45,306 bases of DNA, taken from the IMG/VR virus record IMGVR_UViG_3300032304_000682, positions 1 to 45,306 of that record. One strand, 5' to 3'. The notes under the pieces are model-generated. The model was not told the origin of the DNA. It saw only the letters and a list, made by a program, of their open reading frames with translations, and did not search any database. This document shows positions 2,326 to 42,598 of the stretch, piece after piece (position 1 is the stretch's first letter; each line of letters opens with the position of its first letter). The DNA is from a virus. The translations under genes and the position numbers were made by a program.

Positions 2326-2979
2326 ATGTTTTCGGAAGTAGATAATATTATCTTCCCAGATAGCTGTGAGGTGATTCAAGTTGCCTCACAGCAATTTGTC
2401 TATCCAATTTTTAAATGTGGTCGCTCCTCGTTAACCTGGAAAATGGAATCTAGAGGATGGACATTTGTGCCAGAACAAGATATTGTCAAAATTAACACGC
2501 CAATTAGAATATTTTTACGAGATCCTCGTGAGCGTTTTCTAAGTGGAATAAACACTTATCTACAACACTTGGCCGCAGAAGGCAACGATCTGGACCAACA
2601 TACTGTATTATTTTTTGTTAATAGATATTTGTTTTTGAATAGGCACTATGCTCCGCAGTTTTTTTGGCTGTTAAATCTAGCTCGTTTAACTCGCCCCAAC
2701 ATTTTAGTGACATTTAGTCCTATAACAGAAATTAGCCAACTAACACACGTTAATAGTCGTGCTAGAGTAGAACCATTAACTGATGAACTCAGACAAAAAA
2801 TTAATAGTTTTAATTGGACGTCAATAGAATTATATTACGCATTAGATCAAATTTTAATTGATCATATAGGCAAAACAGTTACAATACATGAGTTACTAAC
2901 TTATGTACAAGATAACCACTCTAATCTGTACGATTTAGTTTTTAAAAAATCTCTCAACATAACCAATGTACTGCCCTAG
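2326..2979 (+). CDS. Sulfotransferase-like protein
   Basis: Probably transfers sulfate from PAPS to a glycan or other acceptor. Residues 26-36 (YPIFKCGRSSL) resemble the 5'-phosphosulfate loop of carbohydrate sulfotransferases, where a basic residue is followed by a Gly/Ser-rich turn. Residues 65-74 (RDPRERFLSG) match the 3'-phosphate binding motif RDP-x-R-F-x-S. At 217 residues it is on the short side for the family. It starts 3 nt after gene 32 and overlaps the next radical SAM gene by 14 nt, so the two are probably translated together. The substrate is unknown. Confidence 0.6.
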   Translation: MFSEVDNIIFPDSCEVIQVASQQFVYPIFKCGRSSLTWKMESRGWTFVPEQDIVKINTPIRIFLRDPRERFLSGINTYLQHLAAEGNDLDQHTVLFFVNRYLFLNRHYAPQFFWLLNLARLTRPNILVTFSPITEISQLTHVNSRARVEPLTDELRQKINSFNWTSIELYYALDQILIDHIGKTVTIHELLTYVQDNHSNLYDLVFKKSLNITNVLP

Positions 2980-3850
2980 ACTAGATCATTTTGTTCGTTT
3001 TAATCCCAATGGCACAGTTAGCCGTTGTGGTCACATGACCAATGCTCCGCAATATGCTTCATTGGCAGATATGGAGTCTAGTTTGTGGTTGGCTAATACA
3101 AAGGAATTATTTAAATTTGACACATGGCCCAAAGAATGTGTGCGTTGTCAAGAAATTGAAGTGAAAAGTCCTAGCAGTGTAAGAATACATGCTATTGCAT
3201 TGGATGAATCTGAATCCGATTCCGAGTATCTTCAAGTAGGTGGAGTACTAGACAATGTATGTAATGCAGCTTGCCAAACTTGTAATCCTGATTGTAGTAC
3301 TCGCATTGGTGCACTAACCGGCAACAAATTTCCTGTAATCAATAATAGCACATCATATTGGAACTTGCCTCAGGAACGCATCAGGCACCTAGACATCAAC
3401 GGCGGCGAGCCAAGCTACAGCAAAAACTATAAAAAACTGTTGGCAAACTTACCACCAAATTTACGCACACTAAGACTCAATACTAATTGTAATATTGTAT
3501 TAGACGAGCTTACTGAAATAGCTCAACGTGGCATTGAGGTTACTGTTACAGTTAGTTGTGACGGAATTGGCCCGGTTCATGAGTTTATGCGTTGGCCCAT
3601 TCCTTGGGAAACTTTTTATCTTAACCTAATGCAATACAAAACCATGCCGGTAAAATTAAATTTATGGACCACAGTTAGTGTATTGAATGTAGATGATTTG
3701 GCTAATATACAAGCTTTTGCCCAGGAACATGGCATTGATCATGGTTATGCATATTTAAAAATGCCCGCGGAACTAAGCGTTGATAACACCGACCATGCTG
3801 CCAGAGATGCATACATACGCAAACAAAAACAGTTAAGAGGCATTGAATGA
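2966..3850 (+). CDS. Radical SAM protein with N-terminal twitch domain (copy 1, shortest)
   Basis: Radical SAM enzymes cleave S-adenosylmethionine with a [4Fe-4S] cluster to start radical chemistry. The cluster motif CX3CX2C is C99, C103, C106 (CNAACQTC); GGEP, typical of the SAM-binding strand, follows. Upstream lies a separate cysteine set (C3, C21, C58, C61) like the twitch/SPASM auxiliary cluster domain, but before the core instead of after it. This arrangement fits the family named twitch domain-containing radical SAM protein. At 294 residues it is 50-90 shorter than the other four copies and lacks their C-terminal FPEL-like ending. The ATG lies inside the upstream gene. The substrate is unknown. 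Confidence 0.8.
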   Translation: MYCPRLDHFVRFNPNGTVSRCGHMTNAPQYASLADMESSLWLANTKELFKFDTWPKECVRCQEIEVKSPSSVRIHAIALDESESDSEYLQVGGVLDNVCNAACQTCNPDCSTRIGALTGNKFPVINNSTSYWNLPQERIRHLDINGGEPSYSKNYKKLLANLPPNLRTLRLNTNCNIVLDELTEIAQRGIEVTVTVSCDGIGPVHEFMRWPIPWETFYLNLMQYKTMPVKLNLWTTVSVLNVDDLANIQAFAQEHGIDHGYAYLKMPAELSVDNTDHAARDAYIRKQKQLRGIE

Positions 3851-4392
3851 AAATAGCAATTACGGGACATACTGCAGGTATAGGTCAAGCACTGGCTAAA
3901 GAATATGTCCTTGATAAACATGAGGTTGTAGGACTTAGTCAACGCGAAGGCAATAACATTCGTAACATACCTAAAATTTGTAATCAGATTGAGTCGTGCG
4001 ATGTGTTTGTGAACAATGCACAAGCTGGATACGCACAGACTGAGTTGTTATTTGAAATGGCACAACGCTGGACTGGCACCAAAAAACACATTATAGTAAT
4101 CAGTACCATAATGACACAAGATCCTGTTAGTGTACTACCTGGATTGGATATGGTGGCCTATCATCAACAAAAAGTCACATTGGAAGAAATGGTCAAACAG
4201 CTACGCCATCAACGTCTTGGTATAACTATTACCATTGTTAGACCTGGATACATTGCCACACAACCTGGACAAACTGTACCACCTGCGGCAGATGTTAATA
4301 ACTGGGCTAGAACTTTATTAGATTTATTTGATATGGCCAAAAATAATAATTTAACAATACCAGATATATCACTAGGACCATTGTATAAATGA
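3847..4392 (+). CDS. Short-chain dehydrogenase/reductase (SDR)
   Basis: Predicted NAD(P)-dependent oxidoreductase with a Rossmann fold. The N-terminus carries TGHTAGIG, a form of the TGxxxGxG cofactor loop; NNAQAG matches the NNAG motif; a serine in VISTIM and YHQQK (YxxxK) supply the catalytic Ser, Tyr and Lys. At 181 residues it is shorter than the usual 250, missing part of the C-terminal substrate region. It overlaps both neighbouring radical SAM genes by 4 nt (ATGA), so the three form one translation-coupled unit and may act on the same substrate. Confidence 0.75.
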   Translation: MKIAITGHTAGIGQALAKEYVLDKHEVVGLSQREGNNIRNIPKICNQIESCDVFVNNAQAGYAQTELLFEMAQRWTGTKKHIIVISTIMTQDPVSVLPGLDMVAYHQQKVTLEEMVKQLRHQRLGITITIVRPGYIATQPGQTVPPAADVNNWARTLLDLFDMAKNNNLTIPDISLGPLYK

Positions 4393-5534
4393 ATCCTAAA
4401 GACGTACTGACAAATCGACATTTTTGTCCTATGCCATGGACAGGGCTCATGTACAATTCCGACGGCGCAGTTAAAAACTGCATTCGTAGTGATGATACAC
4501 TTGGCAATATCAAGGACGCACCGATTGAGGAAATACTGCTCGGAACCAAGAATGTAGGTAAACAAACCAACATTCTTAATAATCAGCCAGCTGTTGGATG
4601 TCACACTTGTTATGATCTTGAGCACAATAAAAAAGGATTTGACATTATCAGCGATAGAATTTTTTACATAAGAGAATTCAAACGAACACCGCTTGATACA
4701 TACCAAGTTGATAATTTTAATTTGCAAACAGTTGATGTTCGGTGGACTAATTTATGTAATTTTTCTTGTGTGTATTGCGGGCCTAGATTTAGTAGTAAAT
4801 GGGTTCAAGAACTTCAAGTGGTACAAGATACACCAACAGATCTACAACGTGCTGAGTTTAAAGAATATATTTTTAAACACGCACCCACTCTTAAACACGT
4901 TTACTTGGCAGGCGGCGAGCCGTTGCTAATGAAAGAAAATTTAGAGTTACTTAAAAAATTAAACCCCGATGTTAATCTTAGGATAAACACTAACCTTAGC
5001 AAGGTTGATACCGGAGTGTTTGATGCAGTATGCAAGTTTAAAAATGTTCACTGGACTGTGAGTGTAGAAACTGTAGAAAAAGAATTTGAATATATTCGAT
5101 TTGGCGGCAAATGGTCTGATTTTTTAGATAATTTAACGGTAATTAGAAAACTCGATCATAAGATAAGTTTTAATATGTTGTGGTTTTTATTAAACTATGA
5201 CACAATATTTGGTTGTGTAGATTACCTCAAAGGGTTAGGATTCCATAACAACAGCTTTATCATAGGAGCATTGCTAACTCCAGAACATCTAAACATTAGA
5301 CATTTGCCAGAAAATATGTTAAACTTACTAAAGACTAAATTGGAGTCTAAAATTAACGAGCACCCGGGATACTTGCTTGAAGACAGTTACCGAAATATGT
5401 TACACTATATAGAACAACCAATTGAAAAGAACTTAACAACGTCATTTGAGAAGTTAGCTGTAATGGATCAAAGACGTGGAGTAGACAGCAGTAAAATTTT
5501 TACAGAATTATATAAACTTAAAGAAGGAACTTAA
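4389..5534 (+). CDS. Radical SAM protein with N-terminal twitch domain (copy 2)
   Basis: The N-terminal 75 residues read like a SPASM/twitch domain: FCPMPW at 12-17, then C31, the LGNI turn, and C71/C74 as CHTC. The radical SAM cluster motif follows at C123, C127, C130 (CNFSCVYC), with GGEP further on. The domain order is therefore auxiliary-cluster domain first, core second, the reverse of classical SPASM enzymes. The 381-residue length matches copies 3 and 4. The block SVETVEKEFEYIRFGGKW is shared in pattern with the other copies (S-x-D/E-x-V/I...YIR...W). Substrate unknown; probably cytoplasmic. Confidence 0.85.
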   Translation: MNPKDVLTNRHFCPMPWTGLMYNSDGAVKNCIRSDDTLGNIKDAPIEEILLGTKNVGKQTNILNNQPAVGCHTCYDLEHNKKGFDIISDRIFYIREFKRTPLDTYQVDNFNLQTVDVRWTNLCNFSCVYCGPRFSSKWVQELQVVQDTPTDLQRAEFKEYIFKHAPTLKHVYLAGGEPLLMKENLELLKKLNPDVNLRINTNLSKVDTGVFDAVCKFKNVHWTVSVETVEKEFEYIRFGGKWSDFLDNLTVIRKLDHKISFNMLWFLLNYDTIFGCVDYLKGLGFHNNSFIIGALLTPEHLNIRHLPENMLNLLKTKLESKINEHPGYLLEDSYRNMLHYIEQPIEKNLTTSFEKLAVMDQRRGVDSSKIFTELYKLKEGT

Positions 5535-5536
5535 TC

Positions 5537-6592
5537 ATGGGTAAACCATTTGACGTATCAAAATTCCGTAAGGACATTACCAAGAGCATTGATGGTCTAT
5601 CGATCGGATTTAACGATCCCACCGACTGGATCAGCACAGGTAACTTTGCACTCAACTACTTGATCTCAGGCGACTTTAACAAAGGTATCCCGTTAGGCAA
5701 AGTTACAGTATTTGCCGGTGAGTCTGGTGCAGGCAAGAGTTATTTTTGTTCAGGCAACATCATTAAGAACGCACAAGAGCAAGGCATTTTTGTTATTTTG
5801 ATTGACAGTGAAAATGCGCTGGATGAAGATTGGCTCAAGGCATTAGGAGTTGATACTAGCGATAGCAAATTACTTAAATTGTCAATGGCCATGATCGATG
5901 ATGTGGCCAAAACAATTTCAACATTCATGAGTGACTATAAAGCACTTCCAGACGGCGAGCGCCCAAAGGTGTTGTTTGTTATTGACAGCTTGGGCATGTT
6001 GTTGACACCCACTGACGTAAATCAGTTTGATGCAGGTGAAATGAAAGGTGACTTGGGTCGTAAACCCAAAGCACTGACAGCATTGGTTCGTAATTGTGTC
6101 AACATGTTTGGTAGTTACAACGTGGGTCTGGTATGTACAAACCATACCTACGCTAGCCAAGACATGTTTGATCCAGATGATAAAATTTCAGGTGGTCAAG
6201 GCTTTATCTATGCATCAAGTATTGTAGTTGCTATGAAGAAAATGAAACTGAAAGAAGACGAGGATGGCAACAAGATTACCGATGTCATGGGTATCCGTGC
6301 TGGTTGTAAAGTAATGAAAACTCGTTATGCCAAACCGTTTGAAGGTGTACAGGTCAAAATTCCTTATGAAACAGGTATGAACCCGTACTCAGGCATGGTG
6401 GACATGGCTGAGAAACGTGGCCTGCTTAAAAAGGAAGGCAACAGTCTAGCGTTTGTTACCAGCGATGGTGAAATCATCAAACAGTTCCGCAAAAAGTGGG
6501 AAGCCAACGAAGGCGGATGTTTAGATAAACTCATGTTGGACTTTAATAATCAAAAAACGGTAAGTATTGAAGACACAGTTGCGGAGGAATAA
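5537..6592 (+). CDS. uvsX: UvsX, RecA-like recombinase
   Basis: ATP-dependent strand-exchange protein for recombination-dependent replication and repair. Walker A is GESGAGKS (61-68), followed by a Walker B-type strand (VLFVIDSLGML) and the RecA-like segment around TNHTYASQ and the GGQG loop. Length 351 compares with 391 for T4 UvsX. A good ribosome binding site (AAGAAGGAA) precedes the ATG. UvsY follows one gene downstream, the partner that loads UvsX on gp32-coated DNA; all three members of this T4 trio lie within 6 kb here, split by the cargo block 2326-5534. Confidence 0.93.
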   Translation: MGKPFDVSKFRKDITKSIDGLSIGFNDPTDWISTGNFALNYLISGDFNKGIPLGKVTVFAGESGAGKSYFCSGNIIKNAQEQGIFVILIDSENALDEDWLKALGVDTSDSKLLKLSMAMIDDVAKTISTFMSDYKALPDGERPKVLFVIDSLGMLLTPTDVNQFDAGEMKGDLGRKPKALTALVRNCVNMFGSYNVGLVCTNHTYASQDMFDPDDKISGGQGFIYASSIVVAMKKMKLKEDEDGNKITDVMGIRAGCKVMKTRYAKPFEGVQVKIPYETGMNPYSGMVDMAEKRGLLKKEGNSLAFVTSDGEIIKQFRKKWEANEGGCLDKLMLDFNNQKTVSIEDTVAEE

Positions 6593-6843: not shown

Positions 6844-7295
6844 TGTGGTATAGTAAGATTGTTGCCAGTCTAGGTAACATTCCTGATTTCATAGCTCATT
6901 ACGAAACAGAGCTAGAAGATGCCAAGCGTGATGTACGTATTGGTGGCCTTGTTGAAAAAAATATCACAGCATTACCTGGCATTACTGAACATCGTTTCAA
7001 CCAGTTACAAGAAATTGAAGCGGTATTGAATCATCTCAATATACAGTTACGCAAGATTCGCCGTAAACATTTTCAAAAATATCTTGAAGGTTATGCCAGG
7101 GCACTAACCAGCAGAGACGCAGAAAAATACGTAGATGGTGAGGACGAAGTCATTGATTTTGAAACCATCATAAATGAAGTAGCCTTGTTACGCAATAGAT
7201 ATTTGGGCATACTAAAAGCCATGGAATCTAAAAACTTTATGTTAGGGCACATAGTTAGACTCAGAGCCGCCGGCATGGAGGATATACAGGTATGA
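6843..7295 (+). CDS. uvsY: UvsY-like recombination mediator
   Basis: In T4, UvsY helps UvsX displace gp32 from ssDNA. The best match is the C-terminus: residues around 127-150 (ILKAMESKNFMLGHIVRLRAAG) follow the pattern of the T4 UvsY end, where a helix with A-I-K-S-R-G-F is followed by I-K-H-I and an arginine. The middle is helical and basic (RKIRRKHFQKYLEG), consistent with ssDNA binding. Length 150 compares with 137 in T4. Its position right after uvsX and the acidic gene supports the call. Confidence 0.75.
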   Translation: MWYSKIVASLGNIPDFIAHYETELEDAKRDVRIGGLVEKNITALPGITEHRFNQLQEIEAVLNHLNIQLRKIRRKHFQKYLEGYARALTSRDAEKYVDGEDEVIDFETIINEVALLRNRYLGILKAMESKNFMLGHIVRLRAAGMEDIQV

Positions 7296-8047
7296 CATTT
7301 ATACATCCTGGAGATAGCCACCGTCACAGTCTTGAAACTCTAAATCGGTTATACGAATACGACGATTTTATGGCCAGTATTAAAACTGTGCTAGATCTCG
7401 GATGTGGCACAGGTGATGATCTTGAGTGGTGGGCTACAAGGACCACCAGAGATGAAGTTCCTCAACCGTTGAACATCAGATGCACTGGCATAGATTTAGC
7501 ACCCAACCTGGCGCTAACCAAAAAGTGCAATACTGTATTTTATCAATCTGGCAATTTTGAAGGCACAATTCTAGCATCTCCTGGGGAATTTGACGTGCTA
7601 TGGTGCCATGATAGTTTTCAGTACACACACGCACCTGTAAAGACATTAAGCAATTGGTGGCATTTGGCCAGTCCCGGAGCCATGTTGTATCTGGCTGTGC
7701 CAGTAACCCAACGAGTACATCGTAATCAACTAGATTACCATCTGTCCTCGGGATGCTATTATCACCACACCATGGTCAGTTTAATCTACCAGCTGGCCAC
7801 TGCAGGTTGGGATTGTGGTTCAGGATTTTTCCGACAAGCACCCACAGATCGGTGGATTCATGCCGTAGTTTATAAAAGTGCCCATGCTCCGCAAGACCCA
7901 ACTACCGCTTCTTGGCATACATTATCTGAACTTGGCCTATTACCCGAATCTGCCATGAAAAGCATACACGCACACAATTACCTACGCCAGCAGGATCTTG
8001 TTGTGCCCTGGATCGATCACAGCTTGATGAGCATGGCTGTGAAATAA
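7292..8047 (+). CDS. Class I SAM-dependent methyltransferase
   Basis: Motif I, VLDLGCGTG, lies at residues 33-41, followed by an acidic residue at the end of strand 2 (GIDLAPN) and a motif IV-like WCHDSFQY. These mark a Rossmann-fold methyltransferase that uses S-adenosylmethionine. Length 251 fits small-molecule or sugar methyltransferases. It overlaps uvsY by 4 nt and opens the glycan island, so an O- or N-methyl transfer to a sugar is a reasonable guess. The acceptor cannot be read from the sequence. Confidence 0.75.
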   Translation: MTFIHPGDSHRHSLETLNRLYEYDDFMASIKTVLDLGCGTGDDLEWWATRTTRDEVPQPLNIRCTGIDLAPNLALTKKCNTVFYQSGNFEGTILASPGEFDVLWCHDSFQYTHAPVKTLSNWWHLASPGAMLYLAVPVTQRVHRNQLDYHLSSGCYYHHTMVSLIYQLATAGWDCGSGFFRQAPTDRWIHAVVYKSAHAPQDPTTASWHTLSELGLLPESAMKSIHAHNYLRQQDLVVPWIDHSLMSMAVK

Positions 8048-8076
8048 TCAATCTAGCAGAGTGGGTATTAACGGCG

Positions 8077-8084
8077 TATAAATA
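8077..8084 (+). promoter_or_regulatory. T4-type late promoter TATAAATA
   Basis: An exact match to the T4 late consensus octamer in a 42-nt gap between genes. The ATG at 8090 begins 5 nt after the box, where transcription is expected to start, and there is no Shine-Dalgarno sequence, so the mRNA is predicted to be leaderless. Confidence 0.75.
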
Positions 8085-8089
8085 TCCGT

Positions 8090-8830
8090 ATGAAAACTAT
8101 TGTGGTAGTAAGCGGTGGATTTGATCCTGTACATTCTGGACATATCAAACTAATTAAACATGCACGCCTACTAGGCGACATGCTTGTTGTAGGCATCAAC
8201 AGCGACGAGTGGCTTGCCCGTAAAAAAGGTCGCGCATTCATGCCCTGGACCGAACGTCTTTGTGTGCTCAACAATCTCAAACAGGTGGATGAAGTATACA
8301 CGTTTGACGACGAAGACGGAACCGCTTGTCACTTATTACAGCAAGTTCAGGCTCACTATCCAGATGCAAAAATTATCTTTGCCAACGGCGGCGATCGCAC
8401 AAAAGAAAATATTCCAGAAATGTCAGTCAACGGTGTGGAATTTGCATTTGGTGTGGGTGGCAAAGACAAAGCCAACAGTAGCAGTTGGATATTACAAGAA
8501 TGGAAAGCACCCAAGACAGAACGTCCGTGGGGCCACTATCGTGTACTACACGAAGTGTCTGGAACCAAAGTTAAAGAACTTACTGTCATGCCCGGATGTA
8601 GTCTTAGTATGCAACGGCACCAACATCGTGCAGAACACTGGCATGTGTCAGAAGGTCGATGCGCAGTGGAAGGTGAAAGCCAACGACAAACATCTTTAGA
8701 AACTCACAATAGTTACCATATACCCACAAATGAATGGCATCGTTTATATAATCCATTTGACCAACCTTGTCGCATTGTGGAAATACAATATGGTCCTAAC
8801 TGCGTAGAAGAGGACATTGAGCGTCTATGA
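8090..8830 (+). CDS. Fusion of cytidylyltransferase-like and mannose-6-phosphate isomerase-type cupin domains
   Basis: Probably makes or modifies an activated sugar. Residues 1-135 form a nucleotidylyltransferase of the HxGH class: GFDPVHSGHI at 10-19 and a late SSSWIL block, as in HldE/RfaE C-terminal and glycerol-phosphate cytidylyltransferases. Residues 142-246 form a type II phosphomannose isomerase cupin: ERPWGHY, then MQRHQHRAEHWHV with likely metal ligands H177, H179, E182, then IPTNEWHRLYN. In ManC/AlgA this cupin is fused to a GDP-mannose pyrophosphorylase of a different fold, so the partner domain here is unusual. It overlaps the next glycosyltransferase gene by 4 nt. Confidence 0.8.
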   Translation: MKTIVVVSGGFDPVHSGHIKLIKHARLLGDMLVVGINSDEWLARKKGRAFMPWTERLCVLNNLKQVDEVYTFDDEDGTACHLLQQVQAHYPDAKIIFANGGDRTKENIPEMSVNGVEFAFGVGGKDKANSSSWILQEWKAPKTERPWGHYRVLHEVSGTKVKELTVMPGCSLSMQRHQHRAEHWHVSEGRCAVEGESQRQTSLETHNSYHIPTNEWHRLYNPFDQPCRIVEIQYGPNCVEEDIERL

Positions 8831-9507
8831 CACCAATTCCAATTTTTGTTGGATACGACCCAAGAGAAGCAGTAGCATATCACGTATGTGCTAACAGCAT
8901 TATTCGACACGCTAGTCAACCCGTCGCTATTATTCCGTTGGCATTAAATCTACTCAAAGATTACAATGAAACACACACCGACGGTAGTAATCAATTTATC
9001 TACAGTCGTTTTTTGGTTCCACACTTGATGAGCTATACCGGCTGGGCCATATTCATCGACGGCGACATGATTGTGCGTGACGATATAGTTAAACTATGGA
9101 ATCTACAGGAAAGCCATGTTGACGTCATGGTAGTCAAGCATGATTATAAAACACGGATGAAGGAAAAATATCTTGGCTCAAAGAACGAAGATTATCCACG
9201 TAAGAATTGGAGCAGTGTAATACTTTGGAATTGTGCAAATCATCCTAACCGTAAGCTAACACCAGAGTTTGTGCAAGCCAGCACCGGAGCATATCTGCAT
9301 AGGTTTAGTTGGCTAGCAGACAACCGTATTGGCACCTTGCCTAAAGAATGGAATTGGTTGCCAGATGAGTTTGGACCTAACAAAGATGCTAAACTGTTAC
9401 ACTACACACTAGGCACACCTAGTTTTCATGAGTTTGCCGACACGCCACAAGCAGAAGAGTGGCATCGAGAACACTTGTTAACTGATTATTGTTTACAACG
9501 AACTTAA
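8827..9507 (+). CDS. GT-A glycosyltransferase (GT8-like)
   Basis: Predicted to move a sugar from a nucleotide-sugar to a glycan. The N-terminus FVGYDPREAVAYHVCANSI is typical of GT8-like bacterial and phage transferases; the metal-binding DxD motif is DGD at 78-80 within AIFIDGDMIV. Length 226 is compact. It is coupled to the upstream nucleotidylyltransferase-cupin gene by an ATGA overlap. Its stop shares the bases TTAA with the stop of the convergent gene. Confidence 0.75.
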   Translation: MTPIPIFVGYDPREAVAYHVCANSIIRHASQPVAIIPLALNLLKDYNETHTDGSNQFIYSRFLVPHLMSYTGWAIFIDGDMIVRDDIVKLWNLQESHVDVMVVKHDYKTRMKEKYLGSKNEDYPRKNWSSVILWNCANHPNRKLTPEFVQASTGAYLHRFSWLADNRIGTLPKEWNWLPDEFGPNKDAKLLHYTLGTPSFHEFADTPQAEEWHREHLLTDYCLQRT

Positions 9508-10136
9508 TGCCAGTGCTGTTTCACTAGTGGATGATCCATCATAGTGCTAGGTTTTTGACTTACTTTTCTAAAAATTAAAATCTTAGTGTCGGGTGAGGCC
9601 ACTGGCTGACTAGACCATCCAATCCACTCAGCGGGAATATAATCTTGAAGTAGAGTATGATCAGTGTAGTCTTCTATGAATGCTTGATCACCATATCTGG
9701 GCATTTTTGAATATTGTTCTTTTATCTCTTCTGCAGATATTTCTAAATATTGATCCCATAGATACGAATGATTACCTTGCCACCACATTACGGCACTGGA
9801 CACTACATTTTTATCTGTTTCTAATAACATAACAAACTGTTGATCTTTGATTTTGTTAACCATATCATCTAGACTAGCACAAACGACAGTATCCAAATCA
9901 ATATACAGTACAGGACCGTTAAATAATTTAGGACGAAACAGTTCCAGTTTGGACCAAAATCCAGCACCCGTGCCAATCAATGGTATGCGTTCGCACGGAA
10001 CGTCTACGTCGCTTAGACAAATAAATTTGTGTTCCAATGCTAAATTTCTAGCAACAGAATTTTTTAATTTTTCCACCCAGGTAGCATCATACCCAACCTT
10101 GCCGCCTAGCCTTAATACGCAAACAATATTAATCAC
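9504..10136 (-). CDS. GT-A glycosyltransferase
   Basis: The DxD motif is DLD at 80-82 in LYIDLDTVV, preceded by the WSKLELF block that commonly precedes it in this family. C-terminal residues WGDQAF-like (YGDQAFIED) form the usual second conserved patch. 210 residues. It is the last gene of a three-gene minus-strand operon and overlaps the upstream methyltransferase gene by 8 nt. Its pattern (K-x-x-LF...P-x-LY-x-DLDTV) is shared with the gene at 14678, so the two are probably paralogues. Confidence 0.75.
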   Translation of the reverse strand: MINIVCVLRLGGKVGYDATWVEKLKNSVARNLALEHKFICLSDVDVPCERIPLIGTGAGFWSKLELFRPKLFNGPVLYIDLDTVVCASLDDMVNKIKDQQFVMLLETDKNVVSSAVMWWQGNHSYLWDQYLEISAEEIKEQYSKMPRYGDQAFIEDYTDHTLLQDYIPAEWIGWSSQPVASPDTKILIFRKVSQKPSTMMDHPLVKQHWH

Positions 10137-10671
10137 GGTAACGTTCTAGCACCAGTAGTCCAGAACCTCGATTACAGTGTTCAATTATGTGCCACCCTCT
10201 ATTATGATGTAGGAATATAATAACTGCTTCAAATACACCGTGCCATTCGCTGGGATCGTGCAATACAATATACCGCTGTGTGTTTTTGGCATGACGATCT
10301 AGCTCTGCTAAACAATGCGGACGTTTATGTACCGTGTCAATGAACAACAAATCGCAAGGCTCTATATCTAGCTCAAGACTGTTGCCAATGGCAAATTCAA
10401 AATCTATATTGTGTTCTTGGGCATACCGCATTAATTCGGGTAATACTGTTAAATTTGCATCGGTGATGTCGTAACTACGAAGATATTTAGGATTGCCGGC
10501 TAACCATGCACAAGTGCTTAGTCCAGTATATACTCCAAACTCCACAATACGATCAACCTGTTGGGCATACCGTGTATAGGTGTCAACTCGGGTTGGACTA
10601 TCGCCTAGCCAAGCAGTGGGTTGAATTTTTAATTCAACAAAGTCTTTTTTCAGTTGTTCTAAGTTTCTCAT
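10129..10671 (-). CDS. SAM-dependent methyltransferase (CmcI / methyltransferase_24-like)
   Basis: Residues with the pattern IVEFGVYTGLSTCAWLA form motif I, followed by SYDI at the end of strand 2 and LLFIDTVHKRPHCLAEL, the pattern of cephalosporin hydroxylase-like methyltransferases (IDG.H.Y). I chose the ATG at 10671, which leaves 4 nt after the upstream stop; a longer reading from 10719 would overlap that gene by 44 nt. Probably methylates a sugar, given the flanking glycosyltransferase and FkbM genes. Confidence 0.7.
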   Translation of the reverse strand: MRNLEQLKKDFVELKIQPTAWLGDSPTRVDTYTRYAQQVDRIVEFGVYTGLSTCAWLAGNPKYLRSYDITDANLTVLPELMRYAQEHNIDFEFAIGNSLELDIEPCDLLFIDTVHKRPHCLAELDRHAKNTQRYIVLHDPSEWHGVFEAVIIFLHHNRGWHIIEHCNRGSGLLVLERYRD

Positions 10672-10675
10672 AACG

Positions 10676-11344
10676 TTATCCAGCGCATTTGTAAACAGTG
10701 TCGTGATCCCATGTGACATGAATTTTATAATTCCACGAGTTCAATAAATTGTCAATTTTTTCTTGTGGCCATCCATATTCATCTCCGCTGCCATTTGTTT
10801 CTAGCACAATTAATGGCTTTGATCTGGTAATGGTTTCTTTGGCTCCCAGCAATGCAAATGCTTCAAACCCTTCTATGTCTAAATGTATCAAATCTGGATC
10901 CAGATCCAATGAATCAATTGTAATCTGTTTTATATTGCCGTGGCCTTTTATTTTTAATGCACCGGTATTAGTTTCATTCCATCTTGGGTTGGTTTCTAAT
11001 TCAATCATTGATTCTACATCGCCCACGGCTGCTTGATATTTTACAACATTTTTTTCCAATACATTGCGACACAAACAAGTAAAGTTTCTGTAGTCGGGTT
11101 CTAAGGTTACAACTGACCGAAACAGTTGACTATATTGTTTGGGATAAAGTCCAGCATTGCCGCCGGCCTGTACCACTAAGTTTCTATGTTCACACAAATT
11201 GGCAATTTGAACCGGTAAGTCCCAGTGACCTATTTTGTTTAACCATTTCCATGCCCAGATATCTTCGCTGGGCCACAACCATGTTCCAGGATGCCTGCGG
11301 CTTTCTCTATATTCTAACCCCAACAATTTATCGTTATCTTGCAC
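10676..11344 (-). CDS. FkbM-family methyltransferase
   Basis: The pattern is that of FkbM enzymes, which O-methylate sugars and natural products: a glycine-rich VQAGGNAGLYPKQY loop (motif I), TLEPD at the strand 2 end, the block NVVKYQAAVGD, and IHLDIEGFE followed by IVLETNG. Length 222 fits. The start is GTG, supported by AAGGA 8 nt upstream; it leads the minus-strand operon with a GTAAATA box further upstream. Confidence 0.8.
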   Translation of the reverse strand: MQDNDKLLGLEYRESRRHPGTWLWPSEDIWAWKWLNKIGHWDLPVQIANLCEHRNLVVQAGGNAGLYPKQYSQLFRSVVTLEPDYRNFTCLCRNVLEKNVVKYQAAVGDVESMIELETNPRWNETNTGALKIKGHGNIKQITIDSLDLDPDLIHLDIEGFEAFALLGAKETITRSKPLIVLETNGSGDEYGWPQEKIDNLLNSWNYKIHVTWDHDTVYKCAG

Positions 11345-11359
11345 CCCGTGTTCCTTTAC

Positions 11360-11390
11360 TATAAATAAACTACTACTATTATTTATTTAC
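11360..11390. promoter_or_regulatory. Interleaved divergent late promoters
   Basis: TATAAATA (11360-11367) reads rightward to the GT25 gene. GTAAATA on the minus strand (11390-11384) reads leftward to the FkbM gene. Each box lies beyond the other's expected start site, so the two transcripts would overlap at their 5' ends. Confidence 0.5.
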
Positions 11391-11391
11391 A

Positions 11392-12153
11392 ATGCAAGCC
11401 TTTATCATTTACCTCCCAGACCGCGAACACAGTGTAAAGCACAGTGCTTACATGTTAGAAACCCTGACCGGGTATGGAATTGATGCCAACTTATTTGAAG
11501 GAACCCGCGGTGATGAGGCAGTGTTGCTGGCAGCCAAATCAAAAAAAGTATTGTATCCGTACAGTATTAAAAATCAAAAATTAAGTAACCGCGAGATTAA
11601 AGAATATATTAGGCCGGAATTATGGGAAGAATTTAAACAAGAGTTTCACAGCACAATATATAAACGCCAACGTGTTGGACAAGAAGATATTGGAAAATTA
11701 AGTCGCCCAGGTGTTGTTGGATGTTTTTATAGTCACTATGCATTATGGAATAAATGCATTGAATTGGGCGAACCAATCATGATTTTTGAGGATGATGTTA
11801 AGTTTTATAGAAAGTATGAACCTGTAGACTTTGACGGAGTATTGGTATTGAGTTTAGGTAAAAGTTCTTACATGAGAGATCCTCAAAAAACCTATTTAGA
11901 AAATCCAACAGGTGTACCTAGGATTGTAAAATGGATAAACTTCAGCATGCCCGGAGCCAGCGGATATGCTATCACTCCAGACGCGGCCAAGGGTTTGGTA
12001 AAGTTTTATAAAGCCTATTGGTCGCCTGCCGACAACGCAATTAATCAATTTATTACACCTATATATCTTCATACCTATCTTATGGGTCGCAATACCCTGC
12101 CAGAAGAAGGCAACATATCAATGACCAAATCTAAAGATTGGAACGTTGAATGA
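11392..12153 (+). CDS. Glycosyltransferase family 25 (LPS-type)
   Basis: GT25 enzymes add galactose or glucose to lipooligosaccharide. Visible marks are the N-terminal FIIYLPDREHS, the block GVVGCFYSHYALWNKCIE (110-124 region; family S-H-x-x-x-W), and the acidic EDDV at 133-136. The ending region MPGASGYAITPDAAKGLV also matches the family pattern (G-x-x-Y-x-I-T-x-x-x-A). 253 residues. No clear ribosome binding site precedes the ATG. It overlaps the next gene by 4 nt. Confidence 0.8.
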   Translation: MQAFIIYLPDREHSVKHSAYMLETLTGYGIDANLFEGTRGDEAVLLAAKSKKVLYPYSIKNQKLSNREIKEYIRPELWEEFKQEFHSTIYKRQRVGQEDIGKLSRPGVVGCFYSHYALWNKCIELGEPIMIFEDDVKFYRKYEPVDFDGVLVLSLGKSSYMRDPQKTYLENPTGVPRIVKWINFSMPGASGYAITPDAAKGLVKFYKAYWSPADNAINQFITPIYLHTYLMGRNTLPEEGNISMTKSKDWNVE

Positions 12154-13058
12154 AAGTAGGTATCTTTTACAACTCGATTAGCAATCCGGCTAAGTTCAGT
12201 AACAAGGTCATGCTCATGGATAATTTTAAAACCGGTGTGTTGGCCAATGGTGACGAAGTAATTGAATTTAGAGACAACACATTGCCAGGTCAATCACTAG
12301 ATGCTGGATTTGTGCTAGGATATACCCTCGAAGACAACTTCCGTAAGAAGATTATTAATCTTCTCAAAGCACAACAGTCCGCAGCAATATTTGTTGATAG
12401 TAATGTACTACATTATGCTCGTAAGGAACATGAATGGCACCGCTATAGTTTAAACAGCGTATATCCAGACTCCGGCAAGTACTTTTTTGGTGAATTAGAC
12501 ACTACCAAATGGACAACGTATAGTCAGTGGCACGGTGCAGAACTAAAACCTTGGCGCACTACTGGCGAACATATTTTAATATTTTGCCAACGGCCAAAAG
12601 GATTCAATATGTTTATTGATCAGGAAGAGTGGCTAGACACGATTATTACAAAAATTCGACAGCACAGCGCCCGCCCCATAATGATTCGCATGCACCCGGG
12701 TGATGGCACAAGAGAAAAGCAGATACATAAAATTAGAAAAAAATACAGAAAATCGGTCACTATATCAAAACACGACAGCATTAAAGATGCATTAATCAAC
12801 TGCTGGTGTACGGTAGGTATAAATTCAACTCCAAATGTAGTGTCTGCTATAGAAGGCATTCCAGGTTACATCGAAGATCCTGTGCATAGTTGGGCCGCAG
12901 ACGTTGCATTTACTGACATAGCACAAATAGAAAATCCGCCATTGCCGGATAGAAATGAGTGGATTAACAAAATTGCCAACATACACTGGTCAAACGATGA
13001 AGTTAAGTCGGGGCAACTGTGGGCTGCAATTAAGACGTGTATTTCTTCTTCTCGTTAA
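12150..13058 (+). CDS. GT-B-like glycosyltransferase (capsule synthesis type), copy 1
   Basis: The N-terminal part resembles a Rossmann-like first domain. The second half has ILIFCQRPKGFNM, then IMIRMHPGDG, and VGINSTPNVVSAIEGIPGYI, the order seen in KpsC/KpsS and related capsule transferases (R-x-H-P then a T/S-rich loop before E-A). It is similar in layout to the gene at 13845. Its 3' end overlaps the convergent gene by 29 nt. The donor sugar is unknown and the family call is moderate. Confidence 0.55.
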   Translation: MKVGIFYNSISNPAKFSNKVMLMDNFKTGVLANGDEVIEFRDNTLPGQSLDAGFVLGYTLEDNFRKKIINLLKAQQSAAIFVDSNVLHYARKEHEWHRYSLNSVYPDSGKYFFGELDTTKWTTYSQWHGAELKPWRTTGEHILIFCQRPKGFNMFIDQEEWLDTIITKIRQHSARPIMIRMHPGDGTREKQIHKIRKKYRKSVTISKHDSIKDALINCWCTVGINSTPNVVSAIEGIPGYIEDPVHSWAADVAFTDIAQIENPPLPDRNEWINKIANIHWSNDEVKSGQLWAAIKTCISSSR

Positions 13059-13827
13059 CAAATATCTCTAAATCTTTTCTAGTACCTTTGGCAGTCCAAA
13101 TATAACTGCGATCTTGCATTTCCCAATCAATATATTCCATGGGTAAGTTACTCCAGTGATATTTTGGAACCAAGTCAGTTAATAAGTCTTGATCAATTCC
13201 CCAATATAGATTATCGTCAGAGATGTTGGTTTTTAGAACACCAGCATATTCTGTCAGAAAATCGTAGCCATTGATATTACCAGTTAGGTATAGTCCCCCG
13301 GCTAGATATCTAGCCTTACGACCCGAGATATAATGTATGTAAAAATCTCGACTGTTATCTAATATTGGTAGATCTTTGCGCACAATAGCGTCAATATCAA
13401 TGGCAAACATTTGAGTATTTGGTCTTATTAGTTGTTGTAGTCGTATAAATCTAGCTGATGCAAAATAAGTTCTTTGTATTCGTTGTTGTATGCTGGTGTC
13501 TTTGCCCTTGCCCATAGCAGTAATAATTCTTCGTCGGCGATCGGCCAACTCTGGGTCGGCGGGCACAGTTTTCCAACGATCGGCGGCCACATCAAATATT
13601 TCTATAGGCACTGCTTCGTAGGTAATACTTACACGATCAATTGATCTGCAATATTGGATTTGATCCAGTGTGGGATTGTATAGATGTAGATGAATGCCAA
13701 ATGTGGTATTCTTTAGAACACTGTTGATCAGTGCAGGGCCAAATTCATCAAAGTATTCTACGTCGCATGCAGCGTAAACAAAAAATTGTGATTGAGCTAG
13801 GTTTCCTAGTAGTGGTGGCAATTTCAT
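13030..13827 (-). CDS. GT-A glycosyltransferase
   Basis: The DxD motif is DID at 144-146 in MFAIDIDAIV, preceded by the helix block ARFIRLQQLI common to GT8-like enzymes. Further on, ARYLAGGLYLTGN and WGIDQDLL match the usual acceptor-side patches (a G-rich N-containing strand and D-Q). 265 residues. It begins only 6 nt after a minus-strand TTAAATA box without a ribosome binding site, and shares a palindromic promoter with the divergent gene at 13845. Confidence 0.7.
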   Translation of the reverse strand: MKLPPLLGNLAQSQFFVYAACDVEYFDEFGPALINSVLKNTTFGIHLHLYNPTLDQIQYCRSIDRVSITYEAVPIEIFDVAADRWKTVPADPELADRRRRIITAMGKGKDTSIQQRIQRTYFASARFIRLQQLIRPNTQMFAIDIDAIVRKDLPILDNSRDFYIHYISGRKARYLAGGLYLTGNINGYDFLTEYAGVLKTNISDDNLYWGIDQDLLTDLVPKYHWSNLPMEYIDWEMQDRSYIWTAKGTRKDLEIFVNEKKKYTS

Positions 13828-13828
13828 A

Positions 13829-13840
13829 TTAAATATTTAA
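13829..13840. promoter_or_regulatory. Palindromic bidirectional late promoter TTAAATATTTAA
   Basis: The 12-nt perfect palindrome gives a TTAAATA box on each strand between two divergent genes whose starts are only 17 nt apart (13827 minus, 13845 plus). Neither start has a Shine-Dalgarno sequence, so both messages are predicted to be leaderless. Confidence 0.6.
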
Positions 13841-13844
13841 CCTT

Positions 13845-14693
13845 ATGCGTGTGGCCTACTTTCCAAATCAATGTGCTCAAAACAGCGTTCCTGTCATGCA
13901 GGCCATGCTGGATAGCCTACGTAGTGCTGGCCACACTATTGAACCAAACAGCATGAACGCAGATGCAGTGATCATATGGTCGGTGCTATGGTCAGGCCGC
14001 ATGGCCGCTAATCAGGCAGTGTGGAGTCACTATAGAAGTCTGGATCGCCCAGTCGTCATCATAGATGTGGGTGCCTTGTATCGTGGTGAGACCTGGAAGA
14101 TTGCCTTAAACTCTATCACAGCCAACGGCTATTATGGACACACTGAAAACTTGGATTGGGATCGTCCCAGAAAGCTGGGCATCAGTCTGGCCATCAATCT
14201 GAGCCAGAATCCCAGGATTGTAATCGCCGCACAACACGCTCGTAGTCTGCAGGTGGTGGGCTTGGTCAGCATGGAGGGTTGGGTTATCCAACAAGTAGAA
14301 CGACTACGTACAGTCACAGACCGTCCTATTGTGGTACGCCCACATCCTCGTAGTGCTTTGAATCAGTCTGGGCTTGTACACTTGCCCAAGGATGTGATCA
14401 TAGAACAGCCACAAAAAATATCCAACACCTACGATAGCTACAATTTGGCCTTTGACTGTCATGCTATCATCAATCATAATTCTGGTCCTGGAATACAGGC
14501 CGCATTGGCCGGCACCAGACCCGTGGTTGATTCCAGTAGTTTGGCGCACCCAGTTAGTATACCGATAGCAGATATAGAAAAACCATATAATTGCGACAGA
14601 GATCAATGGCTGGTGGAAATTTGTCACACAGAATACACCCTAAAAGAGATCGAACAAGGCCTATGGCTCAAGAGATTATGCACGGCCCTATAG
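13845..14693 (+). CDS. GT-B-like glycosyltransferase (capsule synthesis type), copy 2
   Basis: Shares with the gene at 12150 a C-terminal half with IVVRPHPRS, then NHNSGPGIQAALAGTRPVV, the pattern of capsule Kdo transferases and related enzymes in which a His/Ser loop is followed by the A-L-x-G-x-P motif. The N-terminal half has MRVAYFPN and a later IIDVGALYRGETW. 282 residues. GC content looks higher than in the neighbouring genes. Acceptor and donor are unknown. Confidence 0.55.
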   Translation: MRVAYFPNQCAQNSVPVMQAMLDSLRSAGHTIEPNSMNADAVIIWSVLWSGRMAANQAVWSHYRSLDRPVVIIDVGALYRGETWKIALNSITANGYYGHTENLDWDRPRKLGISLAINLSQNPRIVIAAQHARSLQVVGLVSMEGWVIQQVERLRTVTDRPIVVRPHPRSALNQSGLVHLPKDVIIEQPQKISNTYDSYNLAFDCHAIINHNSGPGIQAALAGTRPVVDSSSLAHPVSIPIADIEKPYNCDRDQWLVEICHTEYTLKEIEQGLWLKRLCTAL

Positions 14694-15391
14694 ACTGTGC
14701 CTGTGTAATACACGGCACCGCTTATTCGTGGGACTACGTAGAACGCCTGTACAACATGCTGAGTCGACACGTCACGCCAGGTGTGAAATTGCACGTTTAC
14801 ACCGAAGCCGATAGGCCAGTACCTGAACACATGATCAAACATGTGCTTGAACCGTGGTCTATTGCCAGTCCAAAACGATCTTGGTGGTACAAAATGCAAC
14901 TTTTCAATCCTGCTCATCATGCTGGGCCATTGTTGTATTTTGACCTAGATACTGTGATAGTAGGTAACATAGACTGGATTTGGCAACAGCCTACCACATA
15001 TTTTTGGGCCATACGAGATTTCAAATATCTATGGCGCCCAAATCACACAGGTATAAATTCCAGTGTAATGTGGTGGAACACTCAACATTACCAGACCATG
15101 TGGGACACCTTTACTCAGCAAGACCTAGCTACAAACATGCGAAAATATCCTGGAGACCAAGACTATATTTCAGCAGTAATTCCTGAAAATCAACGTAGAT
15201 TTTTTGATACAACTCGTGTGCAAAGTTGGCGCTGGCAGTGCCTTGACGGCGGGTATAATTTCCGTAAACGACGTCACCAAGCACCCGGTACCGGCACACA
15301 TGTTGCAAACAGCACCAGTATTATGATATTTCACGGCAATCCAAAACCTGAGCAAATTACAGATCAAACAGTGGTTGCCCATTGGCGATGA
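14678..15391 (+). CDS. GT-A glycosyltransferase
   Basis: The DxD motif is DLD at 89-91 in LLYFDLDTVIV, preceded by WWYKMQLFNP, and followed by a conserved MWW and GDQDYI patch. I chose the ATG at 14678 because it aligns with the start of the paralogue at 9504 (minus); ATG at 14663 is equally possible, and a longer open frame to 14591 would overlap the previous gene by over 100 nt. About 237 residues. Probably works with the other transferases of the island. Confidence 0.75.
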   Translation: MHGPIDCACVIHGTAYSWDYVERLYNMLSRHVTPGVKLHVYTEADRPVPEHMIKHVLEPWSIASPKRSWWYKMQLFNPAHHAGPLLYFDLDTVIVGNIDWIWQQPTTYFWAIRDFKYLWRPNHTGINSSVMWWNTQHYQTMWDTFTQQDLATNMRKYPGDQDYISAVIPENQRRFFDTTRVQSWRWQCLDGGYNFRKRRHQAPGTGTHVANSTSIMIFHGNPKPEQITDQTVVAHWR

Positions 15392-17558: not shown

Positions 17559-18680
17559 ATGACTTTTTGCTATTCTCCTTGGACTAATATTGATATTGAC
17601 CCACAAGGTAACATAACTCCTTGTTGTAAGTTTCAAAAACAATATTATGATCAAAAATTTAATATTCAAACGCATTCTACGGTTGAATATTCTAATAGCC
17701 AATTAGTCACAACTATCAAACAAGAATTTCAACAAGGAGCTTGGCCGCAAGGTTGCGAAAGATGTCGTATTGAAGAAGAAAATGGTATTGAAAGTAAACG
17801 ACAATTGGACTACACCCGGTGGAAACATCACTACGATGTGTACGACTTTAACAGTAACAAATTCATTACAACCAGCGTTGCATTTGGAAACACTTGTAAT
17901 CTTAAATGCATAACTTGTGGACCCTATGCGTCAAGCCGTTGGCAAAAAGAGTATCATGACTTGTACGGCAAAGATATTCCGCATTTTAAATTTTACAAAA
18001 AAAACTTTGTACAAGATTTTATATCACAGGCTCCGGATATTGTACACCTGGACGTTCCAGGAGGAGAACCATTTCTAAGCGGAGTGGCCGAGCAAAAGGT
18101 ACTGTTATCACATTACGTGAATGTAGGACAAGCAAAAAATATAACTTTACATTATACAACCAATGCACAGATATTTCCAGATGAAGAATGGTGGCAACTA
18201 TGGGCACACTTCAAAGAAGTTGATATCCAACTAAGTATTGATGGAGTAGGCCGCAGATACGAATATATACGACATCCAGCCAATTGGAATAAATTAATTG
18301 CCAACGTGATTGCATACCAACAGATACACGTATCAAACATTAAACTAAGTGTTAGTCATACTGTCAGTGCCTACAACGTTTATTATCTTGACGAATTCTT
18401 TGAATGGTGTTATAGTATGGGTTTACCACGTCCTTGGTTGGGTCGTGTCCATACACCACAATCAATGCGCCCGGGTGTATGGCCTAAACTTGCCAGAGAC
18501 ATGATAGTGAAGCAATTACAATCTAGTCTAGATCCAGATGTGTTATTGTGGGCAAATTTAATATCCACTGTGGATGAGTCAGAATTTTTTGATGAATTTA
18601 AATCCAAATTGCAGATGCATGATCAATATAGGAACACTGACTTTAATACCACTTTTCCAGAACTAGCCAAACACATATGA
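17559..18680 (+). CDS. Radical SAM protein with N-terminal twitch domain (copy 3)
   Basis: The N-terminal cysteine set is C4, C22, C23, C66 and C69 (CERC); the radical SAM motif is C113, C117, C120 (CNLKCITC), followed by GPYASSRW and a GGEP strand. SIDGVGRRYEYIRHPANW repeats the block seen in the other copies, and the end FPELAKHI carries the shared FPEL. Domain order is twitch first, core second. 373 residues. Its own early-type promoter predicts leaderless mRNA. It overlaps uvsW by 4 nt, so it shares a message with a core recombination gene. Confidence 0.85.
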   Translation: MTFCYSPWTNIDIDPQGNITPCCKFQKQYYDQKFNIQTHSTVEYSNSQLVTTIKQEFQQGAWPQGCERCRIEEENGIESKRQLDYTRWKHHYDVYDFNSNKFITTSVAFGNTCNLKCITCGPYASSRWQKEYHDLYGKDIPHFKFYKKNFVQDFISQAPDIVHLDVPGGEPFLSGVAEQKVLLSHYVNVGQAKNITLHYTTNAQIFPDEEWWQLWAHFKEVDIQLSIDGVGRRYEYIRHPANWNKLIANVIAYQQIHVSNIKLSVSHTVSAYNVYYLDEFFEWCYSMGLPRPWLGRVHTPQSMRPGVWPKLARDMIVKQLQSSLDPDVLLWANLISTVDESEFFDEFKSKLQMHDQYRNTDFNTTFPELAKHI

Positions 18681-25596: not shown

Positions 25597-26977
25597 TGTC
25601 CAAAAACTATTCTTAGAAATGATGTTGCAAGACGCAGAAAGTTATGTTCGCGTTCAAAACATTTATAATCCAGAAAACTTTGATAGAAGTTTAAGACCTG
25701 CGGCCGAGTTTATTGCTGAGCACAGTAACCAACACAAAACACTTCCAGCACCAGAGCAGATTGCAGCCGCAACCGGAGTCAAATTAAATCATGTGCCCGA
25801 ACTCAACGAAGGCCACTTTGAATGGTTTATGAACGAGTTTGAGCAGTTTACTCGCAGGCAAGAACTAGAACGTGCTATTCTTAAGTCGGCTGACTTGTTA
25901 GAAAAAGGCGAGTATGATCCTGTAGAAAAACTGATCAAAGATGCGGTACAAATATCACTTACTAAAGATATGGGCACAGACTACTTTGCAGATCCTAATG
26001 CTCGTATCAACAAGTATTTTAATTCAGGCGGACAAGTATCAACAGGTTGGCCACAGATGGACAAGATCCTGTATGGTGGATTCAGTCGCGGCGAATTAAA
26101 TATTTTTGCTGGCGGATCAGGTTCGGGTAAATCGCTTGTTATGATGAACATAGCATTGAGCTGGTTACAAGCTGGCCTCAGTGGTGTGTACATCAGTTTA
26201 GAATTAAGTGAAGAACTGTGTGCGTTAAGAACAGATGCCATGTTGGCAGGTATGAGTACCAAAGAGATTCGCAAGGACATTGATCAAACTGAACTCAAAG
26301 TCAAGTTGGTGTCTAAGAAAGCTGGACAGTATCGTATCAAAGCATTACCAGCACAAAGTAACATCAATGATATACGAAGTTATATTAAAGAAGTGCAAGT
26401 ACAAACAGGCATCAAGGTAGATTTTATCATGTGTGACTACTTAGATTTGTTGATGCCAGTTAGTGCCAAAGTTAGTCCCAATGACCTATTTGTCAAGGAC
26501 AAGTATGTTTCAGAAGAACTGCGTAACTTGGCCAAAGAACTTAATGTGTTGTTTGTTACAGCGTCACAGTTGAATCGTAGTGCGGTAGAAGAAATTGAAT
26601 TTGACCATAGTCATATTAGTGGTGGTATTTCAAAGATCAATACAGCAGATAACGTGTTTGGTATCTTTACCAGTAGAGCCATGCGTGAGCGTGGCAAGTA
26701 TCAAATTCAGTGTATGAAGAGTCGTAGCAGTACAGGCGTAGGACAAAAAATTGATTTAGATTATAATATTGAAACCATGCGTATCACTGACCCAGGAGAA
26801 GAAGCTGGTCCAGTTAACTCGTTTGCTAAAGGTAACCTATTAGATAGTATCAAGGCCAAAAGCACAATGGTCAATAAAGAACCTATAGATGCTGACACTG
26901 GTGAAATCAGTAAAGTTACTGCGGATGTGCAAAGTGCCAAATTAAAACAATTACTTGGACAAATTAAACAAACATGA
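25574..26977 (+). CDS. 41: Replicative DNA helicase (T4 gp41 / DnaB family)
   Basis: Hexameric 5'-3' helicase of the replication fork. Walker A is GGSGSGKS (180-187); Walker B is in FIMCDYLDLL; the DnaB-like arginine and Q region TASQLNRSAVEE follows. The N-terminal 130 residues match the helical collar domain. The start is TTG, supported by AAGGA upstream, and lies inside the primase gene. Length 467 compares with 475 in T4. It overlaps the next radical SAM gene by 4 nt. Confidence 0.9.
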   Translation: MLKDYGLDVQKLFLEMMLQDAESYVRVQNIYNPENFDRSLRPAAEFIAEHSNQHKTLPAPEQIAAATGVKLNHVPELNEGHFEWFMNEFEQFTRRQELERAILKSADLLEKGEYDPVEKLIKDAVQISLTKDMGTDYFADPNARINKYFNSGGQVSTGWPQMDKILYGGFSRGELNIFAGGSGSGKSLVMMNIALSWLQAGLSGVYISLELSEELCALRTDAMLAGMSTKEIRKDIDQTELKVKLVSKKAGQYRIKALPAQSNINDIRSYIKEVQVQTGIKVDFIMCDYLDLLMPVSAKVSPNDLFVKDKYVSEELRNLAKELNVLFVTASQLNRSAVEEIEFDHSHISGGISKINTADNVFGIFTSRAMRERGKYQIQCMKSRSSTGVGQKIDLDYNIETMRITDPGEEAGPVNSFAKGNLLDSIKAKSTMVNKEPIDADTGEISKVTADVQSAKLKQLLGQIKQT

Positions 26978-41477: not shown

Positions 41478-41487
41478 GGAAACCATA

Positions 41488-42582: not shown

Positions 42583-42598
42583 TGTTAGAAACCACACA

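Follow-up and report, generated by a model that had tools for sequence, protein, structure and literature searches.

Four overlapping genes carried as optional cargo between gene 32 and uvsX of large phages: a candidate unit for sulfation and radical SAM chemistry

What do four tightly packed genes do between two replication and recombination genes of a virus, and do they belong together? The question is raised by the IMG/VR virus record IMGVR_UViG_3300032304_000682, of which the whole stretch of 45,306 bases (positions 1 to 45,306) was analysed and is called the window below. On its plus strand, the gene of a gp32-like single-stranded DNA-binding protein (1342–2322; phrog_1192, 3e-65) and that of a UvsX-like recombinase (5537–6592; phrog_97, 1.4e-69) are the left and right anchors of a cargo site with four complete open reading frames (ORFs), all starting with ATG. 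These are ST, encoding a sulfotransferase-like protein of 217 amino acids (2326–2979), rsA, encoding a short twitch-type radical S-adenosylmethionine (SAM) protein of 294 amino acids (2966–3850), SDR, encoding a short-chain dehydrogenase/reductase of 181 amino acids (3847–4392), and rsB, encoding a twitch-domain radical SAM protein of 381 amino acids (4389–5534). The initial annotation had described four tightly overlapping genes between gp32 and uvsX, which is borne out by the ORF coordinates, except that overlaps are confined to the three inner junctions (ST/rsA, 14 nt; rsA/SDR, 4 nt; SDR/rsB, 4 nt), whereas the outer two are gaps of 3 nt (gp32 to ST) and 2 nt (rsB to uvsX).

It had also been proposed that the genes serve one pathway and that they should stay together in related phages instead of occurring independently. 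IMG/VR loci were fetched with rsB, SDR, ST, rsA and uvsX as baits, and GTDB contigs with rsA; each search kept no more than the 80 best candidates, out of up to about 600, distant relatives being under-sampled, and the counts from these bait-selected loci show the companions of ST, not its abundance. After near-identical loci had been dropped, 253 of 386 remained, with L105–L117 standing outside the tally. The 253 loci contained 187 runs with ST or its replacement STv, from which the 152 untruncated ones were used, and rsB was called at a 300-bit threshold that sets its paralogs apart. Already in the first set, rsA followed ST in 119 of 121 cases, the remaining 2 lying at contig edges. Among the 152 loci, a radical SAM partner adjoined ST or STv in every case (152/152), SDR was also present in 140, and all four genes were found in 127. 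At the gp32–uvsX site (129 loci) there were 117 complete sets (4 of them with the variant pair STv–rsAv), 2 sets without rsB and 10 with ST–rsA only; the 23 loci elsewhere comprised 10 complete sets, 11 without rsB and 2 with ST–rsA only. Independent occurrence was thus seen in part only: ST–rsA came without the other two genes in 12/152 loci, rsB alone was missing in 13 more, and in L004 rsB was the sole module gene between gp32 and uvsX. Three SDR runs without ST were each cut by a contig end. A strict dependence of the four genes on each other is ruled out by the 12 loci with ST–rsA alone and by L004.

The order of the genes also varies. Within the gp32–uvsX site, SDR–rsB–ST–rsA was found in L378, L380, L385, L391 and L397, and rsB–ST–rsA–SDR in L363. 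At a second location the module reads SDR–ST–rsA, with or without rsB after SDR (L321–L343, L346, L357 and L359; a few without SDR), and in G018, G022 and G025, contigs that also carry a terminase, it is separated from uvsX by about 33 to 46 kb. Moreover, ST and rsA were jointly replaced by STv and rsAv in 7 loci (L011, L022, L062, L066–L068 and L073). Because of these swapped orders, the relocation and the joint replacement, it may be concluded that the units of inheritance are two movable pairs, ST–rsA and SDR–rsB. A shared insertion site cannot explain a linkage that persists in permuted order and at a second location, while a shared function can; therefore, the data strongly suggest one functional unit, and the four genes probably build or decorate one molecule. 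The earlier idea of a single unit holds in so far as the linkage persists across several gene orders and two kinds of position; the unit is modular and not indivisible. Purifying selection acts on each of the four genes, the median pairwise ratios of nonsynonymous to synonymous substitution rates (dN/dS) being 0.176 for ST, 0.079 for rsA, 0.094 for SDR and 0.074 for rsB, in comparison with 0.103 for gp32 and 0.052 for uvsX.

Few neighbours of the relocated module were named by a PHROG scan. Transporter-like genes (of the tricarboxylate or TRAP type) were recognized by eye near it in L339 (12398–14913) and L334 (60–791), and the two in L339 had no PHROG match. The second-location contigs give the impression of being marine, and one of them is named MED13. 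The rsA search of GTDB genome contigs yielded one locus, L321 (NZJL01000003.1), on a 10 kb contig of a metagenome-assembled genome named Porticoccaceae; this is possibly a phage contig or possibly a hint to a host, and no host is derived from it here.

How often the site is occupied was estimated from a uvsX-selected sample of 78 dereplicated loci, 59 of which had both anchors, the other 19 being dropped. The full unit was present in 9 of the 59 sites, in 1 more it was accompanied by an oxygenase-like gene, 2 sites held ST–rsA only and 47 none of it, so the module is an optional cargo. The 47 module-free sites were either empty (16, with a gap of 4–69 nt) or contained 0.57–4.2 kb of other sequence (31); L298, for instance, has an AMP-binding enzyme there, and L283 a protein with weak likeness to ADI (E 0.015). 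Unrelated cargo was also noticed in L261, L266, L297 and others, with an ADI-like or amidinotransferase-like gene (L261) and SGNH-like genes, all recognized by eye. Cultured relatives are available for the anchors only. The closest are large phages such as Sinorhizobium phage Phosso, Agrobacterium phage Atu_ph07 and the PA5oct/Ettore group (UvsX, 68% at best; gp32, 50–54%), and among 50,697 INPHARED phage records neither any of the four proteins (tblastn) nor the whole four-gene unit (blastn) found a match. In Phosso, the recombinase gene directly follows the gp32 homolog at a distance of 78 bp, which makes it an empty site, and in Ettore the two genes are separated by two other ORFs.

The sulfotransferase label of the first gene, given in the initial annotation, is backed by residue motifs and a predicted fold; the window protein had no hit of a curated family in Pfam, PHROG or NCBIfam. 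The residues K30, R65, P67, R70, S73 and G74 are invariant in 51 aligned rows, and K29, R59, R64, S67 and G68 (L321 numbering) are invariant in the 8 rows of a divergent set. We take the lysine to be that of the 5'-phosphosulfate loop and the R...S pair to be the 3'-phosphate motif, and both of these elements of a sulfotransferase are present in ST. In the structural alignment by VIA of an AlphaFold2 model (predicted local distance difference test score, pLDDT, 86.7), ranks 1–22 were occupied by sulfotransferases only (Z 5.7–3.8), the first other fold appearing at rank 23 (Z 3.7). The nearest solved structures are glycan sulfotransferases: the predicted fold resembles heparan sulfate 3-O-sulfotransferases (PDB 1vkj and 7scd; Z 5.6–5.7 over 152–158 residues), from which ST differs by its shorter length and by an identity of 10–13% only. 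The ST profile retrieved nothing relevant from PDB sequences, and Pfam Sulfotransfer_2 and Sulfotransfer_1 matched relatives weakly (11/51 and 9/51). Since family hits are lacking for the window protein and are weak in its relatives, the name "sulfotransferase-like" is used, and fold and motifs together suggest that it is appropriate. This gene appears to have a history of its own. Divergent versions of ST are 35–37% identical in loci whose adjoining rsA, SDR and rsB are 80–86% alike (e.g., L047 versus L058 and L061 versus L070), so that the ST gene alone may be exchanged or may change fast. Simple drift is unlikely given the 86% identity of rsA beside 37% for ST in L047/L058.

Both radical SAM proteins are related to one family, NCBIfam NF033640 (N_Twi_rSAM), for which we know of no tested function. 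rsB scores 243.2 bits with this family, over its cut-off of 170, and also matches PF04055 (3.4e-15); four N-terminal cysteines of the auxiliary cluster (C13, C31, C71 and C74) and the following CxxxCxxC motif (C123, C127 and C130) are invariant in 43 rows, so rsB has the score and both cysteine sets that define the family. rsA, at 126.2 bits (1.7e-36), stays below the cut-off and is shorter, with C3, C21, C58 and C61 and the CxxxCxxC cysteines C99, C103 and C106 invariant in 44 rows. Its alignment with rsB spans 270 columns (E 1.9e-19), and it is a shorter relative of rsB, of the twitch type. Residues 12–85 of rsB align with the twitch domain of BtrN (PDB 4m7s; E 0.0013), a twitch radical SAM enzyme that dehydrogenates an aminocyclitol. 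The two domains are alike, but the aligned part is C-terminal in BtrN (chain 168–243) and nothing else is aligned. Counting rsA and rsB, twitch radical SAM genes number five within the 45 kb of the window, the others being at 17559–18680, 26974–28101 and 28088–29119. Such matches numbered 14 and 15 in the related records G001 (182 kb) and G002 (145 kb), 12 in a 212 kb record and 0 in G010. An iron–sulfur scaffold protein of the NifU_N/IscU type, encoded at 35681–36064 of the window (5.7e-53), fits this heavy load of iron–sulfur enzymes.

The SDR protein passes the cut-off of PF00106 (32.2 against 26.6 bits), and T6, G7, G11, G13, S86, Y105 and K109 are invariant in 45 rows, i.e., the TGxxxGIG motif, the serine and YxxxK are kept. 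Going by these residues, it is a classical short-chain dehydrogenase/reductase whose active site is intact. Two more genes are options at the gp32 site and often adjoin the module at the second location. One, OX, is absent from the module of the window; its H80, D82, H129 and R141 are invariant in 11 rows, and this HxD...H triad with an arginine is presumably the signature of a 2-oxoglutarate (2OG)-Fe(II) oxygenase. Two of the 11 OX members matched the Asp/Arg hydroxylase family PF05118 weakly (best E 0.014), and a sequence search gave no solved relative. The other encodes an SGNH-type protein with a weak GDSL match in L339, in which GCS, D and H are invariant, the version at the gp32 site included. 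An OX homolog also occurs at 112000–150000 of G001 (loci L111 and L112), in a biosynthesis-like cluster with a radical SAM array and with ADI-like, carbamoyltransferase, DegT aminotransferase and epimerase genes.

Summarizing these data, we read the locus as a cargo module of two pairs, with or without the putative 2OG-Fe(II) oxygenase and the SGNH-type protein, which modifies one acceptor in several steps during infection of the cell; we assign this reading a probability of roughly 0.45. By analogy with BtrN, the twitch radical SAM enzymes would oxidise unactivated C–H or carbinol positions of the acceptor, SDR, using NAD(P)H, would reduce or re-oxidise a carbonyl, and ST would cap a hydroxyl with sulfate from 3'-phosphoadenosine 5'-phosphosulfate (PAPS) made by the host. 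The PAPS is presumably host-made because adenosine 5'-phosphosulfate (APS) kinase turned up in only 1 of 10 phage records and was not detected in the window; PAPS made by the phage was rejected on the same count. A sugar or glycan is favoured over a protein as the acceptor, with modest confidence, since the phages carry glycosyltransferases, methyltransferases of the sugar type and nucleotide-sugar genes. The region 7292–15391 of the window is a cluster of glycan-type genes with methyltransferases including FkbM, a cytidylyltransferase–cupin fusion, and glycosyltransferases of the GT8 and GT25 types.

Several observations weigh against this reading. The best Foldseek E for the ST model is 0.14, which is not significant, and all VIA Z values for ST are below 6, in a range which the tool rates as common. 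The fold matches of rsB are mixed and include peptide enzymes (SuiB, SkfB and anSME), sugar or nucleotide enzymes (BlsE, AprD4 and DesII) and MoaA; hence, the substrate class is not settled by the fold. Twitch radical SAM paralogs are widespread, also where the site is without the module (G014, G015 and G016), and therefore the presence of radical SAM genes alone is not specific. The 12 loci with ST–rsA alone and the 13 lacking only rsB show that the full set is not required in every case, and many relatives have no module at the gp32–uvsX site (47/59). Finally, STv, compared with the ST profile by hhalign, gave no match (probability 0.1, E 0.46, from a shallow 5-row profile), and it may be that the variant module has no sulfotransferase.

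Other explanations of the module differ in what they take the acceptor to be. It could be a phage or host protein or peptide, modified by the radical SAM enzymes and the putative Asp/Asn-hydroxylase-like OX and sulfated on a side chain by ST. The peptide maturases among the best fold matches of rsB (SuiB at Z 13.1, SkfB and anSME) and the likeness of OX to PF05118, with its invariant residues, are in line with this; but inspection by eye found no small conserved precursor ORF in the module, OX is optional, and the solved structures nearest to ST act on glycans. In our opinion, a protein acceptor is unlikely. DNA or a nucleotide would be modified if the module were a hypermodification pathway serving the replication genes beside it. 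Radical SAM and 2OG enzymes participate in some phage base modifications, and the site does lie between two replication/recombination genes, yet the second-location modules are far from uvsX, other gp32–uvsX sites are empty or hold unrelated cargo, and no base-modification kinase or ligase was noticed by eye in the window, all of which makes this proposal quite improbable.

Little credence can also be given to a small diffusible or host-directed compound, such as a modified nucleoside or an aminocyclitol, as the product in place of a decorated polymer. G001 has carbamoyltransferase (PF02543, 1e-38), DegT aminotransferase, epimerase and ADI-like genes beside its radical SAM arrays, and the AMP-binding enzyme and the ADI-like protein are cargo of the same site in other phages; however, none of these genes is adjacent to the module, which itself contains no scaffold-building enzyme. 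The linkage might, on the other hand, reflect position only, with independent metabolic genes gathered at an integration hot spot and no shared pathway. Such a hot spot is consistent with the other cargo in the gp32–uvsX gap (31/59 of the uvsX-selected sites) and with ST versions that are out of step with their neighbours, but the same families recur together, in permuted order, at the second location. Pure hitchhiking at a hot spot is disfavoured by these two facts, and we consider the absence of a shared pathway a poor explanation.

A terminator scan found a 13-bp hairpin at 2363–2392 on the plus strand, in the start of ST; no other 42-mer of the gene is as stable as that of the hairpin (−23.1 versus a mean of −5.0 kcal/mol). 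Even where identity of the ST protein falls to 42%, the stem is retained: paired changes occur, among them a double synonymous one in L074 (T-to-C/A-to-G), and many other arm sequences are found. A stem of at least 9 pairs within 100 nt 3' of gp32 was predicted in 180/201 loci (median z −4.66), and the same test gave 21/181 behind ST, 17/182 behind rsA, 29/178 behind SDR, 11/156 behind rsB and 26/179 behind uvsX. Perfect stems were present in 118/133 gp32–ST loci and in 16/16 empty gp32–uvsX sites, as against 2/33 ST genes not beside gp32 and 1/764 windows of uvsX coding sequence. They were seen in 22/41 sites with other cargo and in none of the 4 STv-first and 4 SDR-first loci, where the folded regions are still stable. 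It follows from the counts behind gp32 and behind other genes that the hairpin is a feature of gp32, which is built into the ST coding sequence where ST directly follows gp32. T4 gene 32 presumably also has a downstream stem-loop. The hairpin may be either a terminator or a hairpin protecting the mRNA, and the T-rich tail present in 59 of the 118 perfect hairpins before ST does not decide between these roles. The module behind gp32 would be expressed by read-through past the hairpin and is, therefore, probably made at a lower level than gp32. An RNA element is retained here while an unrelated coding sequence overlies it.

As for what has been described before, T4-like environmental viral genomes rich in radical SAM genes, together with IscU/ATC, are reported by Nishimura et al. 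2017 (PMC5332604), with up to 12 such genes in one 183 kb genome. The window, with five twitch radical SAM genes and a NifU_N protein, resembles them, but the section of that paper describing radical SAM genes contains no radical SAM/SDR/ST module, and the word "sulfotransferase" occurs 0 times in its main text. The cultured Aeromonas giant phage 332-Vera is likewise rich, with eight radical SAM genes, but it belongs to the Chimallinviridae, the genes are in a structural cluster, and "sulfotransferase" appears 0 times in its description (PMC12390700). A sulfotransferase is reported in genomes of marine OM43 phages, and its role is called unclear (PMC10580990). Open-licence PMC papers joining radical SAM, sulfotransferase and phage gave no account of the module. 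The initial annotation, which knew of no described phage pathway of this composition, agrees with this search, with the correction that radical-SAM-rich phages have already been described. Auxiliary and tailoring genes of phages and radical-SAM-rich phages are known, then, and the four-gene module was not found in print.

A further-reaching claim can be made only tentatively: that this is a transferable, self-contained module which moves as two pairs, whose first gene behind gp32 doubles as the 3' hairpin of gp32, and which leads to a sulfated, radical-SAM-oxidised product new to the described phage and bacterial pathways. Phage metabolic genes are usually judged singly, and here a defined four-gene unit, kept across divergent phages and in two locations, is available to be expressed together. 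The unit is also a starting point for asking why certain large phages hold as many as about 15 twitch radical SAM paralogs. Elsewhere in the window, at 41434–43702, a YHYH-domain protein and a class V aminotransferase are encoded between two ORFs recognized by eye as ribonucleotide-reductase-like.

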